Part shown: positions 21,268 to 63,250 of the stretch, one piece after another
Layout of the letters: each line of letters starts with the position of its first letter
Position numbering within the stretch: the first letter of the stretch is position 1
Assembly (NCBI RefSeq): GCF_037081775.1
Contig: NZ_JBAMHQ010000001.1
Coordinates: 62,001-126,000 of the forward strand
Direction of reading: 5' to 3'
DNA: 64,000 nt
Source: Haladaptatus sp. ZSTT2
Lineage (GTDB): Archaea; Halobacteriota; Halobacteria; Halobacteriales; Halococcaceae
Notes under the pieces: model-generated
What the model was told of the DNA's origin: nothing
The model's database searches: none
Seen by the model: only the letters and a program-made list of their open reading frames with translations
Program-made: the position numbers and the translations under genes

Positions 21268-21930
21268 TCACGTAGATGGGCCGGGAGCGACGGGTGGATT
21301 GCCAACGGCAACCTGCGTCGACGCCTGGTGGAGCGCTTCGGTGAGGAGTTTCTTCTCGGCTTTCCGCAGGTGTTCTAACAACGTCGTGTGCGTGATGTCG
21401 AGTTGCCCCGCAAGTGTCTCTGCGTCGATGCGCCGGGGCCAGTCGAAGTACCCCTGTTCTAAGGCGGCTCTGATGACCTCCTCTTGACGCGTCGAAAGCG
21501 AACTGGTGGTGTCATCGACCGGTGTCAGGCGGCCGAGTCTGACGCTGCCGATTTTCCGGAGGTCTGTGACGATGGCTTTCAGGTCTTCGCGTCGGAACAC
21601 GATGACGTCGAAGACACGCTCGTTGCCGTTCACGCGGTCTAACCCGTGGAGCATTCCGTGGTTTTCGCGGATGATGGGCAACGCGCCACACGAGCGTTTG
21701 GTGACGAGCAACCCGGAGGTGCCGATGCGCTCTACCTCGGTCACCATCTCGTCTGCGCGAAGGCGTGCTTCGAAACGGTCGCTTCGCTCACCGGCTTCGA
21801 TGAGGAACGTGATGTACTCGTCGTCCAACACTTCTTCTTGCGTGACGGTGAACGACTCGTCTCCCTCGCCCGTGATTTCGCTCAGGACACAGTCACACTG
21901 CAAGTCGAGATAGAGGGTCGCGCGAAGCAT
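21268..21930 (-). CDS. HTH-10 (bacterio-opsin-activator type) transcription regulator
   Basis: 220 residues from the ATG at 21930 (MLRATLYLDLQCDCVLS). Upstream ATGs at 21945, 21969 and 21978 are possible, and the start is uncertain; an AAATACT box near 21960 favours a short form. The N-terminal 150 residues are a ligand- or partner-binding domain, with RFEARLRADEMVTEVERIG in it. The C-terminal HTH-10 reads STRQEEVIRAALEQGYFDWP, then LDITHTTLLEHLRKAEKKLL. It sits directly upstream of the ABC transporter on the same strand, so it probably controls that operon. Confidence 0.85.
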   Translation of the reverse strand: MLRATLYLDLQCDCVLSEITGEGDESFTVTQEEVLDDEYITFLIEAGERSDRFEARLRADEMVTEVERIGTSGLLVTKRSCGALPIIRENHGMLHGLDRVNGNERVFDVIVFRREDLKAIVTDLRKIGSVRLGRLTPVDDTTSSLSTRQEEVIRAALEQGYFDWPRRIDAETLAGQLDITHTTLLEHLRKAEKKLLTEALHQASTQVAVGNPPVAPGPST

Positions 21931-22014
21931 GTGGTGTGTTCTCATCTCTCTGCTAATGAGTATTTGCATCGCTTCCACCGAACGACTAAATCATCGTGAC
22001 CGAAACGAGACAGT

Positions 22015-52447: not shown

Positions 52448-53104
52448 TTACTTGTTCGCCCGCTCGACGAGCGAATGGCCGACCAGCCGCTCGGTTCCAC
52501 GCCGAAGCCGCTCTGAGGCGGCCTGACTCGACACGCCGAGTTGCGCTGCTAAGTCTGCAAGTGAGACCTTCCGCGGAATCTCGAAGTAGCCGGACTCGTG
52601 GGCGGCGAGGAGCGCATCTTGCTGGCACTCCGTGAGGTTGTAGGCGGCCTCTTCGGTTGAGGAGTCGATCTGGTTGTAGATGGTGTAGAGTTTCACGTCG
52701 ACGCCGACTTCCCCACACCGCGTTCTGAACTCCTTGAACGTCTCGCGGTCTGGAAACTGCATCTGCAGGAACCAGCCCTCGTCCGTGCCTTTGCCTTCGA
52801 GCATCACCGCGTCGAGTTCGACGTACGCTTGATGGACGGTGGTTGCTTTTCCGGCTTCGGTCAGCTCGACGCGATAGAGTCGCTTGTTGTCGACTTCATG
52901 TAACACCGACGGTGACGTGATGGTCGGGTCTGTCTCGAGTGCCTCCTCGAATGTTTCGAAGTTCTCGCTACACGCCCAGAACAGAAAGCGAACGACGCTG
53001 GAGGGGAGCGCCCGTTTTTCTTCGACGGTAACCACGGCGTCTGCGTTGCTGGTCAACGCCTCTTGGAGCACTGGAGTATCCAGATGCACTTCGACGAAAA
53101 TCAT
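52448..53104 (-). CDS. HTH-10 transcription regulator (bacterio-opsin-activator type)
   Basis: 218 residues. An N-terminal sensor-like domain (MIFVEVHLDTPVLQEALTSN, later WFLQMQFPDRETFKEFRTRC) is followed by a C-terminal HTH-10 (LTECQQDALLAAHESGYFEI, then VSLADLAAQLGVSSQAASER and LRRGTERL). The start at 53104 is the first ATG and begins with the family strand. It is followed two bases later by the SprT-like gene, so it may regulate or be co-regulated with it. Signal unknown. Confidence 0.88.
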   Translation of the reverse strand: MIFVEVHLDTPVLQEALTSNADAVVTVEEKRALPSSVVRFLFWACSENFETFEEALETDPTITSPSVLHEVDNKRLYRVELTEAGKATTVHQAYVELDAVMLEGKGTDEGWFLQMQFPDRETFKEFRTRCGEVGVDVKLYTIYNQIDSSTEEAAYNLTECQQDALLAAHESGYFEIPRKVSLADLAAQLGVSSQAASERLRRGTERLVGHSLVERANK

Positions 53105-54404: not shown

Positions 54405-54860
54405 ATGCTCTCAAGAACCTCGGAGCGCGATGACCTGTCGCTTACCGAGCGCGTCCACGAACTCAGAATCGGCCACGACAGCCCGATTCGTATCAGCAGT
54501 GGACACCGACTGCTGCACCACGACGGCAAGTGCAGCCGTCCACACGGCCACAACTACGAGATCTCCGTTACTGTTCGCGGCAACCTGACCGAGGACGGCT
54601 GGGTGGTGGACAAAGGTGACGTCACCAGCGTCATCGACGACTGGGATCACCGCTTTCTGCTCCAAGACGGCGACCCGCTCATCGAGGCGTTCAAAGCCTC
54701 GGGTGACGGCGACGCGCTCGTCGTCTTCGACCACCCGCCGACCGCCGAAGTGATGGGCATCATCTTAGAACAGCGCCTGCTCGCAGAACTCCCCGACAAC
54801 GTCGCGGACGTCTCCGTGCTGGTTCGTGAGACGAGCGAACTCTGTGGCGTGACCTGCTGA
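54405..54860 (+). CDS. queD: QueD, 6-carboxytetrahydropterin synthase
   Basis: 151 residues. Zinc ligands are in ISSGHRLLHHDGKCSRPHGH (His, then HGHNY) with the catalytic Cys in the same segment. The TVRGNLTEDGWVVDKGDVTS segment and the PPTAEVMGII helix complete the PTPS fold. It makes carboxytetrahydropterin from dihydroneopterin triphosphate, the second step towards preQ0. It is first gene of queD-queE-folE-queC, which supplies preQ0 for archaeosine in tRNA. The stop shares one base with the queE start (TGATG). Confidence 0.93.
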   Translation: MLSRTSERDDLSLTERVHELRIGHDSPIRISSGHRLLHHDGKCSRPHGHNYEISVTVRGNLTEDGWVVDKGDVTSVIDDWDHRFLLQDGDPLIEAFKASGDGDALVVFDHPPTAEVMGIILEQRLLAELPDNVADVSVLVRETSELCGVTC

Positions 54861-55627
54861 TGCCAGTCAACGCAGAAACGCCAACACGCGACGGCCCGGA
54901 AGACGGCGATGGCCTGCCAATCAACGAACTGTTCTACTCACTGCAAGGCGAAGGCAAACTCGCCGGTGTCCCCTCCGTGTTCATCCGCACGAGTGGCTGT
55001 AACCTCCGGTGTTGGTTCTGTGATTCGTATCACACCTCGTGGGAGCCAACCCACGCGTGGATGTCCGTCGATGAAATCGTCGAGGCGGTTTCAGAACACA
55101 CCGAAGCAGACCACGTCGTCCTCACGGGCGGCGAACCGCTGATTCACGAGACGGCTGTTACGCTGCTCGAACGCCTTGCCACAGCGGGCTATCACACCAC
55201 CGTCGAGACGAACGGGACGATTTTCCGCGACGCACCAATCGACCTCGCGAGCGTAAGTCCAAAACTCGCCTCCAGTACGCCAACGCCGGAACGCGACCCG
55301 AAAGGCGACGGCGAGTGGGAAGCCCGCCACGAGGAGGCCCGCATCGACATCTCTGAACTGTCTCAGTTCGTCGCCACCTACGACACGCAGCTCAAATTCG
55401 TCGTTACCGGCCCCGACGACATGGCCGAAATCACGGACATCGTCGCGGCCGTTCGCGCGACTGGCGCGTCGCTCGCGGACGATGACGTGTTGTTGATGCC
55501 CGAAGGCCAAACCCGTGAGGCTTTAGACGAGACGCGCAAACGAACGGCTGACCTGGCGATGGAGTACGGTTTCCGCTATACCCCCCGCCTCCACGTCGAC
55601 CTCTGGAACGACGCCCCCGGAACTTGA
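54860..55627 (+). CDS. queE: QueE, 7-carboxy-7-deazaguanine synthase
   Basis: 255 residues. Radical-SAM enzyme rearranging carboxytetrahydropterin to 7-carboxy-7-deazaguanine. The cluster-binding motif CNLRCWFCDSYH (Cx3Cx2C) is preceded by NELFYSLQGEGKLAGVPSVF. The VVLTGGEPLIHETAVTLLER segment holds the SAM-binding GGEP. Its ATG is formed within the queD stop (TGATG), and folE follows after 1 base. Length is normal for archaeal QueE. Confidence 0.94.
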   Translation: MPVNAETPTRDGPEDGDGLPINELFYSLQGEGKLAGVPSVFIRTSGCNLRCWFCDSYHTSWEPTHAWMSVDEIVEAVSEHTEADHVVLTGGEPLIHETAVTLLERLATAGYHTTVETNGTIFRDAPIDLASVSPKLASSTPTPERDPKGDGEWEARHEEARIDISELSQFVATYDTQLKFVVTGPDDMAEITDIVAAVRATGASLADDDVLLMPEGQTREALDETRKRTADLAMEYGFRYTPRLHVDLWNDAPGT

Positions 55628-55628
55628 G

Positions 55629-56228
55629 ATGACTGACGCTACCCTTATCCCCGAGACGGAATCGACCTACGATCACGAGAAGGCGCGGCGAGCGGTTCGC
55701 ATGCTGCTAGAAGCCGTCGGCGCAGACCCCGACCGAGACGGGCTGGTCGATACGTGGGAACGCCGCGTTCCCGACGCCTTCGAGACGCTCACCGAGGGCT
55801 TCCGAACCGAAGAAAAGCCGACGATGCGCACCTTTCCCGCAGAGAGGTCCGGTCTCGTCATCAAGACGGCAATTCCGGTCTACAGCCTCTGTGAACACCA
55901 CCTCCTGCCGTTTTACGGGACGGCCCACATCGCCTACCGTCCCGGTGAGGAGGTCGTTGGCCTCTCGAAGCTCACGCGCTACGTGCGCTGGCAGTCGCGA
56001 AAGCTCTCGATGCAAGAGCGCCTCACCCGCGAGATTGCAGACGGCTTGCAGGCAGAACTCGACGCAGAGGCGGTACTGGTCGAGATTTCGGCGAGCCACA
56101 TGTGCGAGGCCATGCGCGGCGTCGAAACCGAGACTGAGACGCGCACGAACGTTGCCGTTGGTGAGCCAACCGACCAAGAGCGCACTCAGTTCCAGAACGC
56201 CATCGACCGGGCGGAGGGGTCACGATGA
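55629..56228 (+). CDS. folE: FolE, GTP cyclohydrolase I (type IA)
   Basis: 199 residues. YSLCEHHLLPFYGTAHIAYR (Cys88 and His90/91 as zinc ligands), GLSKLTRYVRWQSRKLSMQE and ISASHMCEAMRG (Cys159, third zinc ligand) are the type IA signature. It makes dihydroneopterin triphosphate, the first precursor of preQ0. Haloarchaea such as Haloferax use the unrelated MptA-type enzyme for this step, so a bacterial-type FolE inside the preQ0 operon is notable. Its stop overlaps the queC ATG. Confidence 0.93.
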   Translation: MTDATLIPETESTYDHEKARRAVRMLLEAVGADPDRDGLVDTWERRVPDAFETLTEGFRTEEKPTMRTFPAERSGLVIKTAIPVYSLCEHHLLPFYGTAHIAYRPGEEVVGLSKLTRYVRWQSRKLSMQERLTREIADGLQAELDAEAVLVEISASHMCEAMRGVETETETRTNVAVGEPTDQERTQFQNAIDRAEGSR

Positions 56229-56917
56229 GCCAGCCAAAGGCGGTCGTCCTCGTCTCCGGCGGGATGGACAGCGCCACCGCCGCCGCAGAAGCGAAATCGC
56301 GAGGCTACGACCTTTACTTCTTGCACACCTCCTACGGCCAGCGCACCGAAGGAAAGGAGTACGAGTGCGCCCGGCAGTTGGCCGAGGAGTTCGACGCGGC
56401 CGACTTCCTCCATATCGAAACAAGCCACCTCGCCCAGATTGGCGCGTCCGCGCTCACCGACGAGGGCATCGACGTGGCCGACGCCGACTTAGACAGCGAG
56501 GAAATTCCGGACACGTACGTTCCGTTCCGGAATGCGAACCTGCTCTCGATGGCCGTCTCCTACGCCGAAGCGAACGAGTGTGCGGCCGTGTTCATCGGCG
56601 CACACAGCGAGGACTTCGCGGGCTACCCCGACTGCCGTCCCGAGTTCTTTGAGGCGTTTCAGGCCGTCGCAGACGTGGGCACCAAACCGGACACCCACAT
56701 CTCGCTCGAAGCGCCGTTCGTCGAGTGGACGAAAACGGAGATTGCGGCCCACGGCGTCTCACTCGACGTGCCGTTCGAGCACACATGGAGCTGTTATAAG
56801 GAAGACGCACCTGCGTGTGGCGTCTGTGATTCGTGTGCCATCCGGCTCAGAGCGTTCGAGGATGTCGGTGTCCGCGACCCAATCGAGTACGCAGAGCGGC
56901 CGTCCTACAGAACGTAG
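56225..56917 (+). CDS. queC: QueC, 7-cyano-7-deazaguanine (preQ0) synthase
   Basis: 230 residues. ATP-dependent PP-loop enzyme making preQ0 from the carboxylate and ammonia. PP-loop VVLVSGGMDSATAAAEA, LHTSYGQRT, FIGAHSEDFAGYPDCRPEFF and a C-terminal zinc site (SCYKEDAPACGVCDSCAIRL). It is last of the operon and overlaps folE by 4 bases. PreQ0 is then inserted into tRNA position 15 by TgtA and converted to archaeosine; those genes are not in this window. Confidence 0.95.
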   Translation: MSQPKAVVLVSGGMDSATAAAEAKSRGYDLYFLHTSYGQRTEGKEYECARQLAEEFDAADFLHIETSHLAQIGASALTDEGIDVADADLDSEEIPDTYVPFRNANLLSMAVSYAEANECAAVFIGAHSEDFAGYPDCRPEFFEAFQAVADVGTKPDTHISLEAPFVEWTKTEIAAHGVSLDVPFEHTWSCYKEDAPACGVCDSCAIRLRAFEDVGVRDPIEYAERPSYRT

Positions 56918-57039: not shown

Positions 57040-57189
57040 TCAGGCCCGTTGACCACGGATTCGTGCAGCTTCTGCAATTCCGGCATTCGCTGAACAACGG
57101 GGACACGCGAGTATCCGACCACGGGAGTCGGCGAATACCTGTGCGAATCGTTTCGAGATGTGCGCATCGCAGTTAGTGCAGGTTGGCAT
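57040..57189 (-). CDS. Small zinc-ribbon-like protein
   Basis: 49 residues from the ATG at 57189: MPTCTNCDAHISKRFAQVFA, then ILACPRCSANAGIAEAARIR. Two CxxC pairs (CTNC and CPRC) would bind one zinc. It belongs to a short haloarchaeal family (I believe DUF7563, not checked), of unknown function. The start at 57228 in the same frame is outside the conserved part. It stands alone, convergent with queC, and lies between the preQ0 operon and the LOV regulator. Confidence 0.75.
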   Translation of the reverse strand: MPTCTNCDAHISKRFAQVFADSRGRILACPRCSANAGIAEAARIRGQRA

Positions 57190-57257: not shown

Positions 57258-59264
57258 TCACTCCCTCACTAGTCGGGGTTCTGTTGGACGCTCGAACAGT
57301 TCGGCACACAGTTTCCGCTCTGCGGCGCGCAGATGCTCGTGGAACGTCGACCGCGAGACGCCCATCGCGGTGGCGAGGTCGTCGCCGTTTACCGGCCGAG
57401 GCCAGTCGAAAAAGCCCGCGACGTACGCCCGCTGGAGCGTCGAAAGTTGGCGTTCGGTGAGCCGCTCTTTGAGCGACCCCACAAACTCCTGTTTCGTCGT
57501 TGGTCTGCGGTGGTGTTCGTGGTAGCTCACGAGTTCGGTGCCGGGATACTCCTGTTTCATCAACTCGACGAGCTGGCGGACGTTTGCCTCCTGTGGTAAC
57601 TCGATTTTCATTCGCCCACCCGCGTCGTAGGCGGTGATCTCCTGCGTTTTTGCGCCGTAGTTGGCGAGGTCGGTCACGATTGACTCGCCTGCGAGCGTGA
57701 GTTCGAACAGGCTCTCGTCGTCGTCTGAGGCGACGAGTTGTACCGCCGCAATCTCTCGACATTCTGTGGCGGCTTCGGCCACCGCTTCCGGGTCTGCCCC
57801 GCTCGCGGTGAAGAACAACACGAGCGAGTCGTCTGGCTGGTACATCGCTTGCTTGAAGTCGAGTTCCGCGCCGGTTTTCGCCGCGATGTCCACGAAAAAG
57901 AGTGCCTGACTCTCGAACTCCAACTCGATTTCCACGATGTTGTCCGCGGTGATGATTTTCTTGCTTTCGAGTGAGTTGATGCCGCTTGCGACGGCGCGAC
58001 CCACGGATTCGAGGATGACGCGTTCTCGGTTGTTGAACACGCCATCACGGTCAGTACACACCGTGAGCACGCCGTAGGTCACGTCGTCGTAGACGAGTGG
58101 GATGGCCGCCACTTCGGTAACGCGGGTTGGGTAGCCCCGCCCGAAGCCGCGAACGCCCACGCGGGCGGTCTGCATGGTTCCGGTTTTGACGGCGCGGGCG
58201 GTCGGATTGTTCGCCGCCGCAGGGTCGTTCAAATCGACGCCGATGTCGCCCACCGAGACGAGCGCTTCGCCCGACCACTGCGTCGGGGCGACTTCATCGG
58301 TTCCCACATCGACCTCGCCCACCCACGCGTAGACGTAGGGGTCTGCGCTCGCCAACTGCTTACAGACTGTCTCCTCTATCTCCTCGCGGTTCACCGACCG
58401 CACGAGCGTCTGGGTCACGTCTTGGACGAGACCTTGGACGCGGTCGAGGAGGGCTGCCAAATGCTCGCGTTCTCTCGCAAGCGCGAGTTCGGCCTCCTTT
58501 CGTGCGGTCACGTCGTTCTGGAAGCCCACGAAGTAGCGCACCTCGCCGTCCGAATCTCGAATCGGCGCGATGTTTACGCGATTCCAGAACAGCTCGCCGT
58601 TCTTGCGGTAGTTTTTCACCTCGACGACGACCTCCTCTTCTGCGGCGATGGCCTCGCGCATGGCCGTCACGGCTGCTTGATCTGAGTCGTCTCCTTGCAG
58701 AAATCGGCAGTTTCGCCCGAGGATTTCCGACTCGGTGTAGCCCGTCATCTCGACGAACGAATCGTTTACGTAGCTCAGCGGATTGTCCGGCTGAGTCGCA
58801 TCCGAGATGGCGATACCGACCGGCGCTTCGTTCATCGCCCGCTCTTTCAAGCTGAGTTCGTCCGTGGGCGTCTCGAAGCGCGTTCGGTAGGCCCGCACCG
58901 CCGCGAGTGCGTCGGCTGCCAGTTCTTCTACGTCCGTCTCTGCCGCGAGTCGATACTTCGTGACGCCAATCGCGGTGACGTGGCTCGCAAGCGCCTCACT
59001 CGCGCCGTGTGAGTAGACGATGAGCGGGAGGTGCTGGTCGAATTCGTTTACCGTCTGGACGACCGTTTCCGTGTCGTCGTCTGCCAACGGTGCTTCCGTA
59101 ATCACGCAATCTATCGCAGGAGAGAGTGCCGCTAAAACGTCGGTTTCGGAGGTCACGACGCGCACTGCTTCTACGTCCCGTTTGAGGGCTGTCGCCACCG
59201 CGTCCGCGGTTTCCTCGCGCCCGACGTAGAGCACGCACAGCCGCGAACCGTCCTGAGTACCCAT
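57258..59264 (-). CDS. LOV/PAS, GAF and HTH-10 sensory transcription regulator (Bat-like)
   Basis: 668 residues from the ATG at 59264. Residues 1-125 form a receiver-like domain without a convincing Asp switch. The PAS domain (about 140-255) has the full LOV set: GRNCRFLQG with the photoactive Cys186, NYRKNGELFWN (Asn218, Asn228) and GFQND (Gln249). About 270-450 is a GAF domain, then the Bat-specific region and a C-terminal HTH-10 (LTERQLSTLQRAYVAGFFDW). It should therefore bind FMN and sense blue light, regulating transcription. Targets are unknown; no opsin gene lies in the window. Confidence 0.9.
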   Translation of the reverse strand: MGTQDGSRLCVLYVGREETADAVATALKRDVEAVRVVTSETDVLAALSPAIDCVITEAPLADDDTETVVQTVNEFDQHLPLIVYSHGASEALASHVTAIGVTKYRLAAETDVEELAADALAAVRAYRTRFETPTDELSLKERAMNEAPVGIAISDATQPDNPLSYVNDSFVEMTGYTESEILGRNCRFLQGDDSDQAAVTAMREAIAAEEEVVVEVKNYRKNGELFWNRVNIAPIRDSDGEVRYFVGFQNDVTARKEAELALAREREHLAALLDRVQGLVQDVTQTLVRSVNREEIEETVCKQLASADPYVYAWVGEVDVGTDEVAPTQWSGEALVSVGDIGVDLNDPAAANNPTARAVKTGTMQTARVGVRGFGRGYPTRVTEVAAIPLVYDDVTYGVLTVCTDRDGVFNNRERVILESVGRAVASGINSLESKKIITADNIVEIELEFESQALFFVDIAAKTGAELDFKQAMYQPDDSLVLFFTASGADPEAVAEAATECREIAAVQLVASDDDESLFELTLAGESIVTDLANYGAKTQEITAYDAGGRMKIELPQEANVRQLVELMKQEYPGTELVSYHEHHRRPTTKQEFVGSLKERLTERQLSTLQRAYVAGFFDWPRPVNGDDLATAMGVSRSTFHEHLRAAERKLCAELFERPTEPRLVRE

Positions 59265-59307
59265 AGCAGTGACTCGGTTCCGGCCGTGCAAATAGGTATG
59301 GCACGGG

Positions 59308-59409
59308 TCACACGAATTTGAGATAGAGCAGGGCTAAAAACAGCCAGTAGCCGACGATGGCGGCGAGAATGAGCAGAATAATTCCGGCATCTTCCACCAT
59401 GCGGTGCAT
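59308..59409 (-). CDS. Tiny single-helix membrane protein (candidate)
   Basis: 33 residues: MHRMVEDAGIILLILAAIVG then YWLFLALLYLKFV. One long membrane helix with a charged N terminus. TAACTAAT is centred about 27 bases upstream of the ATG at 59409; the ATG at 59400 is possible too. It lies 43 bases before the LOV regulator on the same strand. Function unknown and its expression is unproven. Confidence 0.42.
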   Translation of the reverse strand: MHRMVEDAGIILLILAAIVGYWLFLALLYLKFV

Positions 59410-59646
59410 ACCCAAGATATACTCAACTTACCACATTAGTTACGAACCACTTTCACCACCGTCAGGAGACGCCCCCGCATCGTTTACATACGGGGGACTA
59501 CGAGCGTCTCGGACGACTCACGGTTCACCGTCCGTCCGCCCAATTCGGTCAGAAACGGCCCGTTCTGGTTCGCTGACTGGCGGAATTCCGCCGACGTTAA
59601 TTTCCCATTTCACCGACGCATCGCCGTGACGGGTTGTGGTTCTCAC
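59410..59646. repeat. Intergenic region with several inverted repeats
   Basis: Contains CCCCCG (59472-59477) and CGGGGG (59491-59496) as stem arms, an ACGGT-TC-ACCGT repeat at about 59520, and a perfect 14-base palindrome GGCGGAATTCCGCC (59579-59592). No gene is seen. The first two lie towards the promoter side of the tiny gene and the last lies after the 59647 gene. Confidence 0.45.
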
Positions 59647-60258
59647 TTATTCGCTCGCTCCGACGACCTGCTCGTAGGCGAACAGCGGTGCGGCGAACAC
59701 CGACTGAAACTGTGCCGTCGCCTGTTCGGGGTTCTCTGCGAGTAGCTGGATGCATTCTGCCTGCCGGGCGGCCAGTTCGCGGCGAAGGTCGGCAAGGGTC
59801 GTCTCCGCGCCGGAAATGCGGTCGCTCTCCCCGAGGACAAGCAGTAGGTCGTCAACGCCGTCCAGCTCTTCGGTGAGGTGGGCGAACGTCGCGCCGGTTC
59901 CCGCTTCGTTTGGCGCGTAGGCGAACAGCAAGCGCGCGTTATGGATGATTTCCGACGCCTCCTCGTGGAGGTTCGTCTCGGTTCCCACCTTCCGCATATC
60001 GAGTTCGACGCCGACGACGTACACGGCGGGGCCGTCGGGGAGTTCGCCCGCCGCCTCGTGGAGCGCCGCAAGCGCCGGGCCGAACACGATTTCGAAGCGC
60101 TCGTCGTCCATCCGCAAGAGATCTGCACCAATCGCGTCCGCGCGGTCTTGATTCGGCGTGAGCAACGCGGCCACCTGTGGCGACACCGTCGCCTCGGCCG
60201 TCGGGTCGTCCTCCGTGACCGTCACGCCCGTGTTCGAAAGCAGAGAGTCCTCGGACAT
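59647..60258 (-). CDS. Hypothetical haloarchaeal protein
   Basis: 203 residues, starting MSEDSLLSNTGVTVTEDDPT. A central alpha/beta segment (AVYVVGVELDMRKVGTETNL, then HEEASEIIHNARLLFAYAPN) is followed by DDLLLVLGESDRISGAETTL and a final helix ending AAPLFAYEQVVGAS. No membrane helix and no known catalytic motif is seen. It is divergent from the RadA-like gene at 60457 and lies beside the PolB2 cassette. I do not recognise the family. Confidence 0.68.
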   Translation of the reverse strand: MSEDSLLSNTGVTVTEDDPTAEATVSPQVAALLTPNQDRADAIGADLLRMDDERFEIVFGPALAALHEAAGELPDGPAVYVVGVELDMRKVGTETNLHEEASEIIHNARLLFAYAPNEAGTGATFAHLTEELDGVDDLLLVLGESDRISGAETTLADLRRELAARQAECIQLLAENPEQATAQFQSVFAAPLFAYEQVVGASE

Positions 60259-61131: not shown

Positions 61132-61392
61132 GTGGGCCGGACGAATCCGACCTATCGACAGTTCCTCCGGCGCTATGAGACGCGCATGGCTCCCTTCCGC
61201 CGGGCGCTCAGAGCCGACCCCCAGCCGCAGTTCGACCGCCTGCTCGCCCGCGCCGAGGAGTACGCAGACGCCGCAAGCTACCTGAACGCCCCCGACCCAG
61301 AGCGCGCAATCATTTTTTCGATGCTGCTCTTTCAAGAACGCGAACTCGCCGCGCTGCGCGACCACCACACCCACTCAGATAGCGAGCGATGA
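61132..61392 (+). CDS. Small helical protein of the PolB2 cassette
   Basis: 86 residues, GTG start at 61132, 3 bases after the RadA-like stop. It is rich in Arg and Ala: PTYRQFLRRYETRMAPFRRA, then LARAEEYADAASYLNAPDPE and a final helix IIFSMLLFQERELAALRDHH. All-helical and charged, it may link the other two proteins. The stop overlaps the polB2 ATG by 4 bases (ATGA at 61389-61392), so it is translated together with it. Function unknown. Confidence 0.72.
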   Translation: MGRTNPTYRQFLRRYETRMAPFRRALRADPQPQFDRLLARAEEYADAASYLNAPDPERAIIFSMLLFQERELAALRDHHTHSDSER

Positions 61393-63250
61393 CGTTCACC
61401 ATCGACTTCCTCGGAGACGAGGTAGTCGAGTGGCGAAAAACTCCTGACACTGTCGAGGCAACGCGAGTCACTGAGTATCGACCACGCCTCTACGTGGCTG
61501 GCCCGGTAGACGCCCGCGAGTGGCTGGAAGCACGCCTCCGCACCGACCCAAAAGTTGCGCACATCGCCACCGAGCAGTGGCGGCTCGACTTACTCGCGGA
61601 CGCTCCCGACTCCGTGCTCCGCGTCGATGTCGAACGAATCGACGACGTCCAACCGCTCGCCCGTGAACTGCGCCACACCCACGAACGCGGGCGGTTCGCC
61701 CCCGGGACGTTCCGGCTGTTCAACGTCGATTTCGCCCCGCAGTTTCGCTACTGTTTGGAGCGGGGAATCGACCCGACACCCAAGTACCCACTTTCGACGT
61801 TCTCGATTCGTCTCTCTGAAAAGGCGCTCGCAGACGGTGACCTCTCACACATCACGCTCAACGGTGAGGACGTGAAAGGGGCGGAATCCGCGGTGTTACA
61901 GGCACTTCGCCACCGTCTCGACGGTGACGACCCGGACGTGCTCGTCGTGAGTAACGGCGACGTGATTCCCCTCCTCGGGCGGAAAGCAGACGACCTCGAC
62001 GTGTCGCTCTCGCTCGGCCGCTTGCCCGGCTGGTCGCAGCTCGCGGGCGAAAACACCTATCAGAGCTACGGGCAGGTCGGCTTCTCTGCGGCCAGAGACA
62101 ACGTCCCCGGCCGGGTCGTCCTCGACATCTCGAACAGCTTTCTCTGGTCGAAATCGAATCTCGATGGGTTGCTCGACCTCGTCTCCCGGTCGTGGCGACC
62201 CTTTCAGGAGACTGGCTGGGGAAGCATTGGAACCATTCTCACGTCCGTCCAGATTCGGGAAGCGCTTGCTCGCGGCGTTCTCATCCCGTGGAACAAGTGG
62301 GACCCAGAGGGGTTCAAAGACGTGCGCACCCTCCACGCCGCAGACCGCGGCGGGTTCATCTTCGAACCACGGGTCGGCCTCCACGAGAACGTCTACGAGG
62401 TGGACTTTGCCTCCCTCTATCCCACCATCATCTGTCGGCACAACATCAGTCCGGAGACGGTGTGTTGTTCTTGCGACCGTGAGCACACAGTCGTTCCTGA
62501 ACTCGGCTACGAACTCTGTGACCGCCCGGGCTTTCTCCCGGCGACCCTCCAGCCGATTTTGGACGACCGGGCACAGTTCAAAGCCCGCCTCGCGGCAAAC
62601 CCGCCCGAGGCAGAACGCGCCTCGCTTGAAGCGCGTGTCAGCGCGCTCAAGTGGATTCTCGTCACGTGCTTTGGCTATCAGGGCTACCGAAACGCCAAAT
62701 TCGGGCGCATCGAGTGCCACGAAGCCATCAAAGCCTACGCCCGCGACATCCTCCTCCGGTCGAAGGTTCACCTCGAAGAGGTCGGGTGGGAAATCGTCCA
62801 CGGTATCGTTGATAGCCTCTCCTGCTCGACACGCTCGACAGATACCGCGACGCAGCAACCGTCTGCGACCGCCTCCGTCAGCACCTCCGCGTGCTTCGCC
62901 GCGGTGACGTAGACCCGAACTCACTGGTTATCAGAAAGCGCGTCTCGAAGCCCCTCGCGGGCTACAGCCAGCGCACCCACACCGTCTCTGCCCTTCAACG
63001 GTACGCCCAGCACGGGATGACACGAAATCCCGGCCAAGACGTACGCTACGTCGTGGTGAACGACGGCGCGCGCTCAGCAGAGCGCGTTCGCCTGCATTTT
63101 GAGGAATGTGACGATTACGACGCCGACTACTACGAAACGCTTCTCATCCGCGCAGCAGAGAGCGTCGTCTCACCGCTCGGCTGGAATCGAGACCGAATCA
63201 GGCATTACCTTCGGGGCGACCGGCAACTCGGCTTGTCTGCGTTTGACTGA
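61389..63250 (+). pseudogene. polB2: PolB2, B-family DNA polymerase, frame-broken after motif C
   Basis: The first frame, 61389-62912, holds polymerase motif A (YEVDFASLYPTIICRHNIS, Asp339), motif B (LKWILVTCFGYQGYRNAKFG) and motif C (VHGIVDS, Asp475). It then runs into nonsense, LSCSTRSTDTATQ. From 62816 another frame reads LLLDTLDRYRDAATVCDRLR on to RKRVSKPLAGYSQRTHTVSA and ends LGLSAFD at 63250, the C-terminal thumb. Between the two blocks, relatives have roughly 80-100 further residues by my recollection. So an internal deletion plus frameshift is likely; assembly error is possible. The exonuclease domain appears degenerate, as usual in PolB2. Confidence 0.8.

Follow-up and report, generated by a model that had tools for sequence, protein, structure and literature searches.

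In H. salinarum, the regulator Bat is associated with an upstream box of the ACTAGT type. Light and low oxygen are the conditions under which Bat induces bop; Brz, a zinc-finger protein of 60 amino acids, is required for both bop and crtB1 (PMC3184054; PMC2253796). The first archaeal LOV domain was characterized in 2025: this domain, ALovD-1, photocycles at up to 3 M salt and carries a GXNCRFLQG signature like that of the haloarchaeal protein described here, yet it comes from a histidine kinase (PMC12202551). In addition, a survey published in 2014 assigned about 30% of 167 archaeal LOV proteins, from Halobacteria, to a LOV-HTH architecture with the formula (RR/GAF/PAS)+LOV+nPAS+kGAF+HTH; the portions of that survey drawn on here hold no discussion of targets (PMC4844311), whereas we propose a DNA box, a zinc-finger gene and a phytoene synthase gene.

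The regulator under study, hereafter LOV-Bat, is encoded on the minus strand of a 64-kb stretch of DNA (the window), by an open reading frame at 59264-57258 (ATG at 59264, stop codon at 57260-57258) whose product has 668 amino acids. Like Bat of H. salinarum, it combines PAS, GAF and a helix-turn-helix of the Bat type. The features of the locus are the following, in window coordinates:

57040-57189, minus strand: small gene of 49 amino acids, MPTCTNCDAHISKRFAQVFADSRGRILACPRCSANAGIAEAARIRGQRA, for a DUF7563 zinc-finger micro-protein (Pfam PF24444, 1.2e-16)
57258-59264, minus strand: LOV-Bat regulator, 668 amino acids, receiver-like / LOV / GAF / BAT / HTH_10 (ORF, Pfam, AlphaFold model)
57264-57277, no strand assigned: Bat-box palindrome CCCGACTAGTGAGG in the last codons of the LOV gene (box scan, enrichment)
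57306-57461, minus strand: HTH_10 DNA-binding domain, residues 602-653, recognition helix SRSTFHEHLRAAE (Pfam 1.3e-21)
57483-57944, minus strand: BAT domain, residues 441-594 (Pfam 1.8e-45)
57978-58391, minus strand: GAF domain, residues 292-429 (Pfam GAF_2 1.3e-8; VIA-align Z of about 20)
58398-58508, minus strand: long helix after LOV, residues 253-289, a linker to GAF of the J-alpha type (AlphaFold model)
58494-58844, minus strand: LOV domain, residues 141-257, with Cys186, Asn218, Asn228 and Gln249 (Pfam, NCBIfam, PDB, Foldseek, VIA-align)
58875-59243, minus strand: receiver-like domain, residues 8-130 (VIA-align to 3jte, alignment)
59280-59300, minus strand: CACCTATTTGCACG-like block just upstream of the LOV ATG, near-invariant in three species (alignment)
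59308-59409, minus strand: unannotated single-helix membrane micro-protein of 33 amino acids, MHRMVEDAGIILLILAAIVGYWLFLALLYLKFV, directly upstream of the LOV gene (conserved in the genus)

Pfam orders the domains as PAS_9 (149-254), GAF_2 (292-429), BAT (PF15915; 441-594) and HTH_10 (PF04967; 602-653), so that the last two are C-terminal with GAF and PAS upstream; the matches to GAF_2, BAT and HTH_10 bear out the preliminary description of a Bat-type regulator with GAF and HTH-10. The AlphaFold model also reveals an N-terminal receiver-like domain of about 120 residues, which that description had overlooked and which aligns with 3jte over 122 residues (VIA-align Z 18.9, rmsd 1.6 Å). The resulting order, RR-like+LOV+GAF+BAT+HTH_10, fits the LOV-HTH formula of the 2014 survey (PMC4844311). 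The conserved acidic pocket, phospho-acceptor Asp and Lys of receivers were not found in the alignment of LOV-Bat: the phosphorylation pocket is degenerate, with Glu56 in place of the acceptor, no Asp pair after beta-1 and no Lys. At the acceptor position, Glu is found in the window and in one congener (G016), and Asp in the other (G017).

The sensor domain carries the full LOV signature. GRNCRFLQ begins at residue 183, and the PAS fold, the photoactive Cys186, the two flavin-binding residues Asn218 and Asn228 and the last-strand Gln249 are all in place, every residue exactly as noted at the outset. The top NCBIfam families are blue-light LOV proteins (YtvA family, 165 bits; LOV histidine kinase, 149 bits), with both scores falling short of the cut-offs set for entire proteins, as the likeness is limited to the sensor domain. 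Similarly, the top PDB matches are all LOV photoreceptors, namely YtvA (3.9e-34), a Brucella LOV kinase and phototropins. The AlphaFold model, made from a 20-sequence alignment, has a mean pLDDT of 81, mostly above 90 in the LOV blocks, and a pTM of just 0.40, so that the relative placement of the domains is not known from it. Its LOV part superimposes on solved LOV structures with an rmsd of 0.8-1.5 Å (Foldseek, VIA-align), and the VIA-align comparison gave Z 22.3 and an rmsd of 1.1 Å over 138 residues. The LOV domain, with all its pocket residues, is shared with bacterial LOV histidine kinases and with YtvA of Bacillus subtilis (2pr5: 48% identity, rmsd 1.5 Å); the output differs, being a STAS domain or a kinase in those proteins and a DNA-binding domain in LOV-Bat.

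A motif of the GRNCRFLQ type occurs a single time in the six frames of the window, and a search of the genome for LOV-like domains returned one domain with the pocket and three other PAS domains, all without it. By sequence, then, the complete motif is not a chance match, and a canonical LOV sensor on a Bat-type regulator is the reading that sequence, model fold and conservation support.

The preliminary description had spoken of LOV domains in a few haloarchaea, which is too low: alongside the share of LOV-HTH proteins in the 2014 survey (PMC4844311), a close LOV-Bat homologue (E 1e-110 or better) was found in 174 of the 392 genomes of the order, a count that rests on E-value, with the LOV residues checked in part of those genomes. 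This kind of protein is thus already known and is not rare. Among 77 orthologue loci from 76 genomes, the adduct Cys is present in all and the C/N/N/Q set is complete in 76, the last having Arg for Gln; the 28 loci that adjoin an opsin gene all keep the pocket. A separate contig scan for LOV-like loci yielded only four, one of them with Tyr replacing Cys. Across the three species of the window's genus, LOV-Bat is 82-95% identical.

The absence of opsin and carotenoid genes, also part of the preliminary description, holds for the window but not for relatives, where opsin and phytoene synthase genes often adjoin LOV-Bat. A rhodopsin-family gene lies within about 4 kb of LOV-Bat in 28 of the 77 loci, often directly 3' and on the same strand, and clusters with lycopene cyclase (27 loci) and beta-carotene dioxygenase (26 loci) accompany the opsin-linked copies. 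A few of these rhodopsins share just 32-42% identity with the queries and could represent other kinds of pump or sensor. Phytoene synthase is found immediately 3' of LOV-Bat in nine further loci. Three loci have a gene for a secreted repeat protein, presumably DUF4397-like. Such linkage, in relatives, to opsin, retinal and phytoene synthase genes is again a likeness to Bat of H. salinarum.

None of these neighbours is present in a clade of 23 loci from one family of genomes, f7. In most of them, the adjoining gene encodes an aldehyde ferredoxin oxidoreductase, a radical-SAM enzyme, which we take to be an archaeosine enzyme, or a divergently transcribed HVO_0649 zinc-finger protein. In about 20 genomes (L072, L079, L096-L110 and similar loci), LOV-Bat is divergent from a micro-protein of this HVO_0649 zinc-finger family; here the recognition helix carries Pro639 and the ACTAGT box is absent, a second arrangement of LOV and zinc finger with different wiring.

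A candidate DNA site was sought with a starting pattern, ACCnnACTAGTTnGG, drawn from the bop upstream activator. The palindrome CCNNACTAGTNNGG, an ACTAGT-type consensus here called the Bat box, occurs 26 times in 1.27 Mb of LOV-Bat loci, and 18 of these exact copies fall in the interval from -60 to +400 relative to the LOV stop codon. This corresponds to a 78-fold enrichment at the LOV 3' end (binomial p of about 1e-22, a value that treats the loci as independent though they are related). Alignment of the sites extends the palindrome to TACCNNACTAGTNNGGTA. In opsin loci, the box stands ahead of the opsin gene, and in phytoene synthase loci it stands ahead of phytoene synthase. The f7 clade, whose 23 loci have Pro for Ser at residue 639 of the recognition helix, showed no such box at the 3' end of LOV-Bat; this is a single evolutionary contrast and not 23.

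In the 3.23-Mb genome of the window, the exact palindrome is present in just two copies, one of which is that at 57264-57277; G016 has three and G017 two, and in each case one of them is at the LOV 3' end. There, the spacer letters vary among the three congeners and the palindrome is intact. The box makes use of the gene's sole CTA Leu codon (1 of 55). The second exact copy, at C2:56404 (L137:6405) between divergent genes for an acyl-CoA synthetase and a CoA-transferase, was set aside as a target site, being in an unrelated place and not kept in the congeners; the additional exact copies in G016 and G017, likewise in unrelated places and not conserved, were also rejected. So was a weak box-like site at 59430, upstream of the 33-amino-acid peptide, which is not kept in G016. 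Nothing notable was found at the photolyase locus.

The ATG of the DUF7563 gene lies 81 nt past the centre of the LOV-3' box. This gene, unannotated and below ordinary length cut-offs, encodes two CxxC motifs and scores 60.3 bits against PF24444 (cut-off 27). It is kept in both congeners, where the differences fall mostly at the third codon position (11 of 14 and 17 of 26), and it is therefore very probably a real gene, as judged by its pattern of substitution. The genome carries seven DUF7563 genes, and among the loci examined this one alone has the exact box. Members of the same family are also found downstream of a one-mismatch box in G084 and G201, which belong to other families; in G084, the order is box, DUF7563 gene, then phytoene synthase. 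On this basis, the 49-amino-acid gene is the presumed target of LOV-Bat. For DUF7563 itself, no literature was found among open-licence papers. Its product resembles Brz, a very small zinc-finger protein genetically tied to a Bat-regulated locus and to phytoene synthase (PMC2253796); the likeness noted is one of size, zinc finger and gene links, and the window's genome has no opsin.

Indeed, no opsin gene was detected in this genome or in its two congeners by a search that finds one in 265 of 392 genomes, and which therefore works. An opsin gene to which the regulator would be linked and which it would activate, as for a Bat proper, was accordingly not found in the genus. The sole phytoene synthase gene of the genome (crtB, C1:950536-951297), the first of the carotenoid genes, is preceded by a one-mismatch box, CCTTACTGGTTGGG, whose centre lies 72 nt upstream of the ATG; the box is identical in G017, and G016 has CCCAACTGGTTGGG 71 nt before the gene, amid otherwise diverged upstream DNA, so that the box is present in all three species of the genus. 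In 12 other family members with orthologous crtB, no box was found at two mismatches or fewer within 300 bp. About 49 one-mismatch boxes are expected per genome by composition, and the crtB box came out of nine candidate loci; a lone box of this kind would thus be weak evidence, whereas this one gains credibility from being conserved at a similar distance from the gene. It nevertheless counts as one evolutionary event, just as the LOV-Bat loci are not mutually independent. Since this box is common to the zinc-finger gene next door and to the distant phytoene synthase gene, both are indicated as targets; an ACTAGT-type palindrome in front of candidate targets, as found here, is what would be expected, from sequence alone, of a Bat regulon.

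Other genes around LOV-Bat were also recorded. The CACCTATTTGCACG-like block may be the promoter of a leaderless transcript, to judge from its sequence. Homologues of the 33-amino-acid peptide were not found beyond the genus in the loci examined. Further upstream and co-oriented, at 59647-60258, lies a gene for a 203-amino-acid protein without any Pfam or NCBIfam match, kept together with the LOV gene across the genus. On the other side, a queD, queE, folE, queC row (54405-56917; preQ0/archaeosine) is convergent with the LOV gene and adjoins it in all three congeners. The window contains two more HTH_10-type genes without LOV (21268-21978 and 52448-53104), the second with Pfam matches to BAT and HTH_10. 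Finally, a Family B DNA polymerase gene at 61389-63250 is broken compared with the intact copy in G017: about 85 codons are gone after 'HGIVDSL' and the frame is shifted, which could be an assembly error.

We propose the following mechanism. Blue light would lead to an adduct between Cys186 and flavin (FMN) in the LOV domain, and the change would be relayed through Gln249 and the long post-LOV helix to GAF/BAT, altering the binding of HTH_10 to DNA at the box. The DNA site of LOV-Bat would be (T)ACCNNACTAGTNNGGT(A), the Bat-box palindrome, which in relatives is found ahead of the gene 3' of the regulator, whether opsin, phytoene synthase or another; in the opsin-less genus, it would control the DUF7563 gene and, in its one-mismatch form, phytoene synthase. 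Given the boxes before these two genes, the likely output is light-dependent synthesis of carotenoids together with a Brz-like zinc-finger protein. The scheme is built on the sequence, the predicted fold, the conservation and the positions of the boxes, from which we infer flavin binding, a photocycle, reading of the box by LOV-Bat and not by a paralogue, and the direction of regulation. We consider it somewhat probable that LOV-Bat is a true LOV blue-light regulator of the Bat type which, with no opsin involved, couples light to the synthesis of carotenoids and to a zinc-finger cofactor.

The same targets could be driven by oxygen if the LOV domain served as a flavin redox or oxygen sensor, instead of or besides light. 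Bat of H. salinarum has classically been read as a redox sensor. It answers to low oxygen as well as to light (PMC3184054; PMC2253796), LOV proteins can signal by flavin photoreduction without the Cys (PMC4682037), and the GAF and receiver-like domains of LOV-Bat could bring in a second signal. The Cys would, however, be superfluous in a pure redox sensor, and it is retained in every one of the 77 loci, with the full pocket in 76. Moreover, unlike LOV-Bat, H. salinarum Bat is reported to lack the photoactive Cys (PMC4844311), and redox sensing thus does not require it; the two also differ in that the genome of the window is opsin-free. We regard sensing of this type as unlikely. About equally improbable, in our view, is that the boxes 3' in the LOV gene and upstream of crtB belong to another HTH_10 regulator and that LOV-Bat has its targets elsewhere, for example in its own operon with the 33-amino-acid peptide. 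This peptide and the open reading frame at 59647 are co-oriented with LOV-Bat and conserved in the genus, and the recognition helices of other HTH_10 proteins in the genome are similar (for example SSATFHQHLRAAQ), so that by sequence these paralogues could bind the box too. Against this, across the family the box goes with the 3' end of LOV-Bat genes, with the 78-fold excess given above, and it is missing from the 23 Pro639 loci, as expected if the LOV protein were its reader.

Three other genera of the window's family (G009, G014 and G015) carry an opsin gene beside LOV-Bat while this genus has none, and one may ask whether the photosensor died after opsin loss, leaving the box as the relic of a lost opsin promoter. 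Both the pocket and the box are retained in three species whose proteins are 82-95% identical, and the idea of a relic box was rejected because a constrained small gene follows it; we give this explanation very little credence, far less than the preceding two. The related idea of an opsin orphan, with the window clade nested among opsin-linked clades, was dropped: in the trees, the clade is not firmly placed, and what placement there is puts it weakly in the half of the family without opsin neighbours.

The reading of LOV-Bat as a light-dependent regulator of the two box-bearing genes can be carried one step further. In opsin-free haloarchaea, a LOV Bat may have given up the control of opsin and become a blue-light switch that governs carotenoid synthesis and a tiny zinc-finger partner via a conserved palindromic box; this we put forward tentatively, at slightly under an even chance. 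A regulon of this kind, in an opsin-less genus and with a zinc-finger target, was not found in the open-licence literature, which is no proof of novelty. The comparison over 76 genomes connects LOV-Bat with a single DNA palindrome and with genes for opsin, retinal and carotenoids. If the proposal is true, the logic of the box would allow many archaeal LOV-HTH proteins to have their targets read off the sequence. Two candidate promoters are named in this genome, and light control of pigment is directly testable, which bears on the question of the role of blue light in haloarchaea apart from rhodopsins.
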